Assembly (NCBI RefSeq): GCF_000238775.2
Contig: NZ_AFEJ02000001.1
Span: forward strand, 4,092,001 to 4,156,000
Direction: 5' to 3'
Length of the DNA: 64,000 nucleotides
Source: Acaryochloris sp. CCMEE 5410
GTDB lineage: Bacteria > Cyanobacteriota > Cyanobacteriia > Thermosynechococcales > Thermosynechococcaceae
Positions within the stretch are counted from its first letter, which is position 1, and the number at the start of each line of letters is the position of its first letter. This document shows positions 58,608-63,353 of the stretch, in pieces. Made by a program: the position numbers and the translations under genes. The notes under the pieces are model-generated. The model did not search any database and was not told where the DNA came from. It saw only the letters and a list, made by a program, of their open reading frames with translations.

Positions 58608-58779
58608 AACGGTTCCTGCTAATGACTCCATAAAAATTCGGTGACCCCTGGGTGTAAGGGCCGCATAAAAGTTTGAATAGGTCGTAGAGGAACGACCTAG
58701 GATAACGAACTTAATAACACCGGAAAATATAGTTGAACATGGCTCTAGCTCCTAACTTCCACAGCCTAAACACCACTGA

Positions 58780-58937
58780 TAGCCCCCTAAATCCCTCACT
58801 GGTGAAGGACTTGTCTGCTCGACCCACACAGGATCTGTGACAAAGTTGAACCTCAGCAGATCTAGAGGTCTCACGATCTAGATTCATTAGCCTAGACATA
58901 GGCTCAAAGTCCTCCAGAATGGGGGATTTAGGAGGCG
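58780..58937. repeat. decayed inverted pair of the GCCCCCTAAAT repeat family, no ORF inside
   Basis: Left copy 58780-58812 (TAGCCCCCTAAATCCC...) and right copy 58904-58937 in opposite orientation (...GGGGGATTTAGGAGG), about 90 bases apart. Both are variants of the 36-38 bp repeats around the DUF559 gene at 62681-63191. The inside holds no credible ORF. This resembles a non-autonomous, MITE-like derivative. It fills most of the 394-bp gap between the ArsR gene and pstS, where I see nothing else except probable pst promoter DNA. Confidence 0.7.
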
Positions 58938-59001
58938 AGTGCAAAAGCCGATGTTGCCAAAAGAGATGGCAGAAATCTCGGTATCAATCACTTTTCATTC
59001 C

Positions 59002-59304
59002 CTAAATAGAAAAGGAGGTAAATGAGAATTCGCAACAGCCCAAATTCAATCCTTCTTGGGACACCTGACTTTGGACATCCGGTACCAAGGCATAAAGGAC
59101 GGCTTTGCCATCGCGAGTGGCTTGCACAAATCCAGCCTGCCGCAGCACTTTTAAATGGTGGGACAGGAGACTTTGCTCGACGTTCAACACGGCATTGATT
59201 TCATTGACGTGTTGAGGGCCATTCATCAATAGCTTCAGAATTGAGAGCCGAGTGGCGTCTGCTAAGGTTTTGAGCTTGTTGGCACAAGATTGAGATGTTT
59301 TCAT
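59002..59304 (-). CDS. ArsR/SmtB-family regulator
   Basis: A winged-helix repressor of about 100 residues with the helix-turn-helix LSHHLKVLRQAGFVQATRDGKAVLYAL. Cysteines occur at the N-terminus (SQSC) and as a vicinal pair near the C-terminus (LGCCEFSF). Vicinal C-terminal cysteines form the As(III) site in some ArsR proteins, so arsenite sensing is a reasonable guess. ATG at 59304 has AAGGTGAG upstream. The AT-rich 59326-59497 region holds the palindrome TTGATATCAA (59374-59383), which could be an operator. Same strand as pstS, 394 bases ahead. Confidence 0.85.
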   Translation of the reverse strand: MKTSQSCANKLKTLADATRLSILKLLMNGPQHVNEINAVLNVEQSLLSHHLKVLRQAGFVQATRDGKAVLYALVPDVQSQVSQEGLNLGCCEFSFTSFSI

Positions 59305-61243: not shown

Positions 61244-61315
61244 ATCATATTCTAATAACTTATCTATATTTTCCCTGCCTCTGCTAGTTTTCGCTGTATT
61301 TCCAGAGATGGAATG

Positions 61316-61331
61316 CTGACTGCCTGACAGA
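61316..61331 (+). repeat. terminal inverted repeat of the IS4-type element, left
   Basis: CTGACTGCCTGACAGA, identical to the reverse complement of 62613-62628; the 9-bp target copy GATGGAATG lies immediately outside. Confidence 0.92.
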
Positions 61332-61348
61332 TCTTTGTATTCCATAGC

Positions 61349-62520
61349 TCATAAAGCTTTGCACTGTAGAGAGCGGATACGAGAGAACCAGATTTTGTTG
61401 TAGTGTTTCTTTTGAGCTTTTTTAGAGGCAAAACACGGTTGCGGATCCTTGGTGAATAAGGGGACTGGCATCAACAACTCCCGTCCTTTATGGACCACCC
61501 CCTTGAGCCACCGCAATCCAATCTTGAGATAGCTAATGCCTCTGTGCCAATGGGGATCAACCTGTTGGCGTAGCCCTTTAATATGAACAGCCATCCCCTG
61601 AGCCGTGCTGTATAGCAGTGCCACAGCAGCAATCAGGTACAGCCTCTCCAGAGCATCAGCACAGCGAATTTTCGACTCTTCAAGCTCAAACACACCAGAT
61701 TTACTATCGAGGAATAATTCTTCCACCCGAAACCTCAAGGCGTATTGCCACAAGGTTTGTAACGAGGGTGATTCATCTGTAATCACTGCCCATGGTTCTT
61801 TTACGCCTCGGATATTCGCCAGTACCAAATTGCACCGATAGAGGCCATCATCCCAAAGCCCGACATTACGGTAGAGGAGAGCTTCTCCTTTGGATGGCCA
61901 TAACCTACGGACTTCTCTTGGACATTGACGGGGGCCATGGAGAAGGACATCACATGGGATACGCAGACAGTAATGCCAACGGCTCTGCTGTAACCAGCTC
62001 ATCAGTTGATGGTTCGCGAACCCACGATCTGCTAACAACATGACATCTGGATGCTGCCGTAATAACCAACGGGCCTGACGCAATAGCGGTTGATATTCCT
62101 CAAAAGCAACCGCCGCACTCTTGTGCTCTAATACTTTCCATAACAACGGTACTGCTCTGCCACAGCAGACAACGGATACATGAATCATGCAGTATTCATT
62201 CCATAAAACCGTGGTATCCATCGCTAGGTAAAGGCGATGGGTTCGCCAGTTCTTAAGCGCTAGAAGGACCAAAGGGACATACAGTTTGTGGACATCAATG
62301 AGCGGATTGCACAGAAAGCGTTGCCAGCGACGCTCGACACTTTGGGCTTTTTTGCTCGGCAGGGGACATAGGATTCCCAAGCAGATAAGCATAATCGTTC
62401 ACTGCAGATTAAGGCGCTCACCATCCATCCCAGGGTCATGAGATGACGCAAATCTCGATAATGGCTGTGTTGACGTAAAAAGGAGAACAGTTGACGATAA
62501 ATTTGGGTGGAGCCTGACAT
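61349..62520 (-). CDS. IS4-family transposase, probably made by -1 frameshifting
   Basis: The first frame starts at the ATG at 62520 (MSGSTQIYRQLFSFLRQ) and reaches A AAA AAG at 62353-62347. A -1 slip there continues in the second frame as AQSVERRWQRFL and so to the stop at 61349, giving about 390 residues. The slip exactly joins matching protein halves, and A AAA AAG is the best-known bacterial -1 slippery heptamer. The catalytic domain has Asp in AMDTTVLWN, Asp in LLADRGF and the YREK-type box YALRFRVEELFLDSKSG, typical of IS4. Without the slip, the first frame gives an 86-residue protein. A one-base loss is the alternative reading. Confidence 0.85.
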
Positions 62521-62612
62521 TTGAGTAACGCTGATTTGTGCTTAAATCTAGCTTCACATGTCGCTCCACTCTTTTCTCAAAGACTATGAAAATAAAGGCT
62601 TTGAGATACTTC

Positions 62613-62628
62613 TGTCAGGCAGTCAGGA
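62613..62628 (-). repeat. terminal inverted repeat of the IS4-type element, right
   Basis: TCTGTCAGGCAGTCAG, the exact inverse of the left end, followed by the second GATGGAATG target copy. Confidence 0.92.
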
Positions 62629-62680
62629 TGGAATGATATGGCGAACGTTAGAGGCTGTTTTAAAAGCCCAGTTAATTCTG

Positions 62681-62718
62681 CATTAGCCCCCTAAATTCCC
62701 CATTCTGGGGGACTTTGA
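62681..62718 (+). repeat. left inverted repeat of the DUF559 unit
   Basis: Begins CATTAGCCCCCTAAATTCCC and ends GGGGGACTTTGA; matches the right copy (63154-63191) inverted, with two mismatches in 38 bases. The inside is itself a hairpin (CCCCA, TTC, TGGGG). Confidence 0.9.
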
Positions 62719-62763
62719 GGCTTATTATTATTCTAGAGGTGAGACAGAGGTAGGGGTAACAAG

Positions 62764-63189
62764 ATGCGAGAGAAAAGAGCGCAACACCACCGTATTCGTG
62801 GTACGACCCCAGCAGTCGTTGCCGCCGCACAACGACTGAGTCTCAATCTGACGCCTGCCGAACAAAAACTGTGGAAAGCACTGCAAAAACGTCAACTCAA
62901 CGGTCTAAAATTCCGCTGTCAACACGCCATCAGCTCGTTTATTGTCGACTTTTACTGTCCCCAATGTCGATTAGTGATTGAGCTAGACGGCGACATTCAC
63001 AATCAGCAGGTGGAGTATGATGAAGCCCGTACCGAGCAGCTTCATCAGCTTGGTTACCGAGTGATCCGATGCCAGAACTCAAACGTTATTCACCACCTGG
63101 ATCATGTACTTCAGCAAATCCGACAGGCGAGTGAGCAAAGCATTGAACTACAGTCAAAGTCCCCCAGGATGGGGGATTTAGGGGGCTAA
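62764..63189 (+). CDS. DUF559 (Vsr/restriction-like) endonuclease-domain protein
   Basis: A 141-residue protein of the DUF559 group, which has the PD-(D/E)XK-like fold of very-short-patch and homing-type nucleases. Expected blocks are LTPAEQKLWKALQKRQLNGLKF, IVDFYCPQCRLVIELDGDIH (with the metal-site Asp, Glu and Asp) and QLHQLGYRVIRCQN. Its last residues (SKSPRMGDLGG and the stop) are encoded by the right inverted repeat itself, so the repeat and gene have grown together. It stands alone between inverted repeats, next to an IS element. A nuclease role in spreading the unit is a guess. Confidence 0.85.
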   Translation: MREKRAQHHRIRGTTPAVVAAAQRLSLNLTPAEQKLWKALQKRQLNGLKFRCQHAISSFIVDFYCPQCRLVIELDGDIHNQQVEYDEARTEQLHQLGYRVIRCQNSNVIHHLDHVLQQIRQASEQSIELQSKSPRMGDLGG

Positions 63190-63191
63190 TG
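63154..63191 (-). repeat. right inverted repeat of the DUF559 unit
   Basis: TCAAAGTCCCCCAGGATGGG to GGGGGCTAATG, inverse of 62681-62718. It includes the DUF559 stop codon at 63187-63189. TA at both outer ends (after CAT and before ATG) could be a target duplication. Confidence 0.9.
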
Positions 63192-63353
63192 TAGCATGAT
63201 TGAGGCTATTGACTAGAAAGGCATCGGATTTAGTTGTGAGGAGTCATACTCTCCTTACAACCCTGTCCATGGCTAACTTACAAGAGTTTTGTCCTGTACT
63301 CAAGGATCAGAGTAATAAAATCAGTCTTTGGGTCCTTTCTCTCTTGGTTTATT

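Follow-up and report, generated by a model that had tools for sequence, protein, structure and literature searches.

REP and REPIN sequences are palindromic hairpins, often arranged as inverted pairs, that are tied to one enzyme family, the RAYT (TnpA-REP) transposases. The repeats described here, which accompany genes for the DUF559 domain, are likewise palindromic hairpins, frequently in inverted pairs, and also go with one enzyme family. They differ from REP/RAYT systems in that the enzyme is of the EDxHD/Vsr type, with no HUH tyrosine transposase among the Pfam matches of the protein studied here, and in that the repeats combine runs of C and G with a tail rich in C. No GTAG or CGTC tag was seen by eye beside the palindrome in the printed DUF559 repeats. 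A second point of comparison is provided by I-Bth0305I and the intein homing endonucleases, which DUF559 matches in fold and sequence and resembles further in its presence within two intein-like frames. Those enzymes reside in self-splicing introns or inteins, however, and DUF559 in palindromic repeats. An earlier report (PMC9403480) places a DUF559 gene in the EDxHD homing family. MITEs (Nezha, Correia/NEMIS, RUP) and the Rickettsia palindromic elements are also short palindromic mobile DNA, and the outer elements of Acaryochloris described below (types O1–O3) look MITE-like. The Rickettsia elements insert in frame into genes (PMC10969869). DUF559 units differ from both groups in carrying a nuclease gene with covarying repeats and in the absence of a target duplication at the one DUF559 site outside Acaryochloris that was resolved to the base.

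REP/RAYT systems and homing endonucleases come closest, and the DUF559 unit looks like a variant combining features of both. No paper joining DUF559 with such repeats was found in an open-access library, and the nuclease–repeat partnership suggests a type of small mobile DNA not previously described. On balance, we think that DUF559 units are probably small mobile elements that combine a gene for a homing-type endonuclease with the cognate palindromic repeats and spread by break repair. The observed part of this explanation consists of the association of gene and repeat, their covariation, presence/absence polymorphism at single sites and the nuclease fold.

The DUF559 locus and its relatives in Acaryochloris

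The window, a 64,000-nt stretch of the Acaryochloris sp. CCMEE 5410 genome, contained a DUF559 gene between two inverted repeats and, upstream, an inverted pair of the same repeat type without an open reading frame (Table 1). The sequence-only reading had described the gene as enclosed by near-perfect 38-bp inverted repeats, and direct reading of the sequence confirmed that 36 of 38 bases match between the arms at 62681–62718 and 63154–63191; a repeat search extended the arm match to 57 nt at 82%. It was equally correct that the right arm encodes the last eleven residues and the stop codon of the protein. The TA placed at the outer ends was a loose description, as the arms actually read CATTAG...CTAATG.

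Table 1. Features of the DUF559 locus and the upstream ORF-less element, in window coordinates.
Feature	Position	Strand	Basis or remark
Whole ORF-less element, ~305 bp, outer type O2	58700-59004	-	Empty-site alignment with congeners
Inner inverted repeat pair of the ORF-less element	58780-58937	.	Repeat type as in the DUF559 unit; interior unrelated
IS	61313-62629	-	Adjoins left flank of the DUF559 unit; DDE_Tnp_1 transposase ORF 61349-62392; boundaries read by eye
Left flank, homologous to flanks of other copies	62646-62682	+	BLAST L002 1381-2037 to L001 1383-2037
Left inner inverted repeat: C-run tail, TAAAT linker, hairpin (TTAGCCCCCTAAATTCCCCATTCTGGGGGACTTTGA)	62683-62718	+	
DUF559 nuclease gene, 141 aa, EDxHD/Vsr-type fold	62764-63189	+	PF04480 E 9.8e-34
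Right inner inverted repeat: hairpin and G-run tail	63154-63189	-	
Right outer flank, conserved in other copies	63190-63300	+	Terminates in TTTTGTCCTGTACT (outer inverted repeat, type O1)

The same genome (8.09 Mb) held five full-length DUF559 copies, two of them free of internal stops, and one remnant. Both arms were present in four of the full-length copies; the fifth, copy E, had a degenerate left arm, and the remnant kept one arm. The repeat pattern, searched with up to three mismatches, was found 12 times on the forward and 12 times on the reverse strand, compared with 2 and 0 for the reversed-pattern control. Eighteen of these 24 matches formed nine inward-facing pairs less than 600 bp apart (pairing was computed for the 22 matches on contig 1, and the two on contig 2 were judged unpaired by eye). 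Because there are multiple DUF559 copies and the repeat counts exceed the control, the arrangement of repeat and gene is not due to chance.

Homology between the copies continued past the inverted repeats. On the left it ran for 37 bp in the window copy and 59–91 bp in four others, and on the right for 110–118 bp in the copies matched, as far as CAGTACAGGACAAAA-like inverted ends. An outer-end search of the genome did not match the left flank of the window copy, and no outer left end was found for it. The IS adjoining that flank has inverted ends of 16 bp, CTGACTGCCTGACAGA, with GATGGAATG on either side (ends read by eye). In copy E and in two loci of a congener (L042 and L046 of G004), the inner DUF559 unit lies inverted with respect to its outer flanks, as if flipped by recombination between the repeats.

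Comparison with congeners located the boundaries of several insertions. The ORF-less element of the window has outer ends GGATAACGAACTTAAT and TTTTCATTCC, with CTA/CCTA on both sides; two congeners (G004 and G005) are uninterrupted at this site and lack the ~305 bp, and two more (G002 and G006) also lack it, the left side aligning loosely. Element s20 (CTTAG on both sides) is absent from G005 and G003, and s22 (AGAAT on both sides), whose target is itself a C/G-run hairpin repeat, from G005. Element s14, with ill-defined ends, is absent from G003. A DUF559-type element of G004 with an internal deletion (L050) is absent from G005 and ends at CAGTACAGTACAAAAC and GTTTTGTCCTGTACT. The four resolved empty sites in congeners were all bounded by outer inverted repeats. 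Terminal inverted repeats together with a target-site duplication, as in DDE-type MITEs, were read by eye for types O2 (s28, s20) and O3 (s22); for type O1, which holds DUF559, L050 showed outer inverted repeats and an empty site with no clear duplication. Short duplications thus accompany three of the four resolved Acaryochloris insertions, as in DDE transposition.

The ORF-less pairs occupied two further outer contexts, distinct from the flanks of the DUF559 copies. Joined outer halves without an inner pair were not found for type O1 in the CCMEE 5410 genome, where the sole match across the joint covered 24 bases (E 0.89), or for type O2 in seven genomes, which gave 10 matches in two of them. 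The O2 copies that were read, including the G004 match, contain an inner pair or the remains of one. Since there are empty sites and no O2 match across the joint, we conclude that the pairs move in Acaryochloris as cores of MITE-like elements. The recent insertions located in this way are explained by the outer ends, presumably used in trans by a DDE transposase.

These boundaries revise part of the sequence-only reading, which had taken the 38-bp repeats as the ends of a mobile unit and the ORF-less pair as its small derivative. Empty sites were found, both in congeners and in other genomes, but in Acaryochloris the boundaries do not fall at the 38-bp repeats: the four resolved sites, from searches that did not include the window's own DUF559 copy, end at outer repeats instead. 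The ORF-less pair does carry the same repeat as the DUF559 unit, and this repeat is all that the two share. A simple deletion derivative is excluded by the unrelated interior, the other flanks and the pair's own empty site; the pair is part of a distinct, MITE-like element ~305 bp long. Despite the nine repeat-bounded pairs in the genome, it is accordingly very unlikely that a self-contained transposable unit terminates here at the 38-bp repeats and gave rise to the ORF-less pair, as in all six DUF559 loci homology passes the repeats to the left, to the right or in both directions.

Association of DUF559 with hairpin repeats across phyla

The wider survey covered 80 named loci from many phyla, 88 genomes of the phylum (66 with the DUF559 family), 20 genomes of the order (12 with the family) and 9 of 37 plasmid records, and the pooled sample comprised 212 distinct DUF559 domains. 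An inverted repeat common to both 400-bp flanks (score of at least 17) was found at 37/77 domains in cyanobacteria versus 0/120 control placements, at 24/85 in other phyla versus 0/163, at 26/41 in the f20 family (a different class of the phylum, with small genomes) versus 1/57, and at 3/3 in other members of the phylum versus 0/5. In an earlier, overlapping count restricted to the named loci, 36 of 79 exceeded the 95% quantile of the controls and 43 did not. The printed repeats follow a common plan, consisting of a C-rich tail, a short linker and a hairpin of C and G runs. A Y-hairpin, defined as a C-run hairpin with a C-rich tail, lay within 300 bp of 66/83 DUF559 domains (78 loci), compared with 12/221 of the remaining ORFs at those loci; hairpins on both sides were seen for 35/83 and 0/221. 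Given these same-locus controls, chance and locally abundant repeats are rejected as explanations of the association. Related copies are included in the sets, such as the five from the CCMEE 5410 genome and three near-identical Azospirillum records, and the counts are therefore not independent events.

Two observations touch on the conditions under which the sequence-only reading would have been refuted. No Y-hairpin stood within 300 bp at 17 of the 83 domains, and the repeat core CCCCCTAAATCCCCC (up to one mismatch) was abundant in some genomes without a DUF559 match, with 82 places in G059 and 38 in G109. Repeat count and DUF559 count were moderately correlated (Spearman 0.48, n = 39), and genome size did about as well (0.47). 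The core is a perfect mirror repeat; since the pattern reads the same backwards, a reversed-pattern control gives equal counts and is unusable for CCCCCTAAATCCCCC. Its mirror symmetry also makes triplex (H-DNA) formation conceivable. DNA folding of three repeats against shuffled sequences gave z-scores of −0.45 for the left arm, which is no better than the shuffles, and −2.45 and −2.67 for the others. A known RNA family was rejected as the identity of the repeats, the best match having E 0.79.

Hairpin repeat pairs of the same plan were also observed downstream of the DUF559 gene on plasmid pGJ3-1 of the gammaproteobacterium Photobacterium sp. GJ3, and large palindromes downstream of that of Sinorhizobium sp. 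K101, which we take to recall RIME elements. Two Picosynechococcus plasmids carried the same DUF559 unit next to different upstream genes.

Repeat type covaried with nuclease sequence. Among cyanobacterial gene pairs from different genomes, a common repeat was found in 5.9% at 35–45% nuclease identity and 9.8% at 45–55%, rising to 43.9% at 55–65% and 86.3% at 65–80% (72 of 18,721 pairs were removed for similar far flanks). For pairs from the same genome, the values were 0/13 at 35–45% identity and 4/17 at 45–55%. The rise was weaker elsewhere, reaching 33% of 15 pairs in the f20 family and 24% of 17 in other phyla at 65–80% identity. When flanks were swapped among genes of the same genome at 55–80% identity (499 pairs), the shared fraction dropped from 0.279 to 0.151 on average (sd 0.022; highest value in 1000 swaps 0.224). 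The type of repeat tracks the subfamily of the nuclease more closely than the host genome. Likeness of the flanks at high identity could reflect the unit travelling as one piece; the argument for specificity is built on the 55–80% range and the within-genome swap.

These results bear on the possibility that DUF559 is captured cargo, persisting as a selfish or defensive nuclease, while the repeats or MITEs are moved by other enzymes such as DDE transposases acting on the outer ends. It draws support above all from the outer inverted repeats that mark the four resolved Acaryochloris insertions and from the abundance of the core in some genomes without DUF559 (G059, G109), and it is in keeping with the many insertions housed in restriction-related genes. 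Within genomes, however, repeat type tracks nuclease subfamily, a single gene family carries the association in many phyla, and in the single base-resolved insertion outside Acaryochloris the boundaries coincide with the repeats. We regard the cargo reading as rather unlikely.

Insertion states at restriction-related genes

Three restriction-related genes were found in empty, repeats-only and full states at one site each. The first, an N6-adenine-methylase-like gene (Pfam N6_Mtase E 6e-4, just under the cut-off), was present in 12 of 241 genomes. It is empty in G193, holds a 645-bp insert of repeats plus DUF559 in G014, and holds repeats only in G118 and G283. Nucleotide identity between G193 and G014 beside the insert was 94.9% and 89.6% on the two sides. 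The junction, TTTGCCC|GATGAGGG, was the single site resolved to the base; it has no target duplication, and the target already contains the repeat tail GATGAGGG.

The second site lies in HsdR (HSDR_N E 1.2e-47), where 22 of the 29 homologs read (L365 was unreadable) have a linker of 17–29 aa. One homolog (L367) contains repeats only, and two carry DUF559, namely L356 from Acaryochloris G005 and L362, the latter from the same genus as an empty homolog (L360). Four others (L361, L371, L375 and L379) have other, longer linkers. At the third, site 2 of the DUF1156 genes, 24 of 30 loci were readable: DUF559 was present in six, repeats only in one (L322) and a linker of 22–27 aa in eleven, and the remaining six hold 33–107 aa of other sequence, partly other peptide repeats. 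Other in-frame peptide repeats (NHGDTEDTE, EVSKENGE) were seen at the same linkers in four DUF1156 homologs (L333, L338, L339 and L342), so other small repeats use these linker sites as well. The inserts read at the methylase, HsdR and DUF1156 sites are open in frame. This does not hold for every insertion of the kind: in two Synechocystis plasmids the frame of DUF559 closes 28 and 54 codons upstream, and the annotation splits the host gene into pieces.

From these states, the association and the covariation, we conclude that the units come and go and that nuclease and repeat belong together. The occurrence of all three states at one site weakens the idea that the repeats are not mobile and serve expression of the nuclease gene, whether as terminators, as stabilisers of its RNA or as translation stops. 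In 55 of 155 stand-alone genes, the stop codon falls inside a Y-hairpin or no more than 14 nt from one, while Y-hairpin stretches make up an average of 15% of the 300 nt downstream (204 domains), and this would suit a role in expression. The repeats are nonetheless also found upstream and without any gene, and inside host genes they are read through in frame; we consider this reading very improbable.

The nuclease and its proposed route of spread

The sequence-only reading had related DUF559 to the Vsr nuclease fold, and similarity was found to I-Bth0305I in both sequence and structure and to Vsr in structure. In profile searches, the window protein matched 3hrl (E 6e-31) and I-Bth0305I (3r3p, E 8.3e-6). 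An AlphaFold2 model (mean pLDDT 80.9) returned 3hrl and 3r3p_A (E 1.7e-6, TMt 0.81) in Foldseek, with a weaker match to 1vsr (E 2.7e-3). Across 35 sequences, E33, D62, E73, H79 and D86 were invariant and D75 was conserved in at least 90%; these residues are candidates for the EDxHD site. The Pfam matches of the protein were DUF559 itself and, below their cut-offs, MTES_1575 and PvuRts1I-like, and by this search the 141 residues contain no added DNA-binding domain. Assignment to a defence system was rejected, as PADLOC gave four weak matches, including a homing endonuclease model (E 4.3e-6). A DUF559 domain was also present within two intein-like frames, L071 (G017) and L078 (G022), whose matches to Hint and intein-splicing models (E 3e-5 and 6e-6) were both under the cut-offs. 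Both frames adjoin DNA methylase sequence, and their C-run repeats are read in frame.

A Vsr-like fold would also suit a repair or hairpin-processing nuclease that acts on palindromes already in place. Selection would then retain the gene close to the palindromes, which the nuclease would not move. The 1vsr match is in line with this, as is the Caulobacter protein VsrA, which holds a DUF559 domain and is needed for a DNA damage response when a cytosine methyltransferase is missing (PMC12907096). We consider such a maintenance role improbable, given that the gene is present or absent together with the repeats at the same sites and that intein-like frames carry the domain.

For the favoured reading, spread by break repair, the following route is proposed. 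The nuclease would bind and cut a site resembling its own repeat, either the tail or the hairpin, and the unit would be inserted when the break is repaired with a copy at another location as template. ORF-less pairs may be targets waiting for invasion, or may be moved in trans; in Acaryochloris, pairs have additionally become the core of MITE-like elements with outer inverted repeats of their own. Cleavage and transposition by DUF559 units are both predictions from sequence. From the present data, DUF559, a "domain of unknown function", gains a testable role, and a candidate enzyme family can be named for cognate palindromic repeats in many phyla. The TPSPxPxGEG-type runs of restriction proteins are likewise explained as translated repeats of this hairpin kind.

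More tentatively, and with somewhat less than even confidence, we propose a class of mobile DNA, extending across phyla, in which each homing-type DUF559 nuclease recognises the palindromic repeat specific to its clade and promotes the spread of that repeat through break repair. Such a class would be a counterpart of REP/RAYT that relies on another enzyme, and the source of many "untagged" bacterial palindromic repeats, BoxC of E. coli with YcjD possibly among them. In E. coli K-12, YcjD belongs to the DUF559 proteins and its final codons extend into a C-run stretch (NC_000913.3 1351040-1351760); a C/G palindrome lies 166 nt after the ycjD stop in this strain. BoxC is given as 56 bp in 32 copies (PMC2267715), and the ycjD-linked repeat may be BoxC, judging from size and number and not from a sequence comparison. 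A 53-nt stretch with the ycjD palindrome, taken from strain H240, had matches in 5375 of 5426 E. coli genomes, at a median of 18 and a maximum of 32 places; ycjD of K-12 offers a tractable case.
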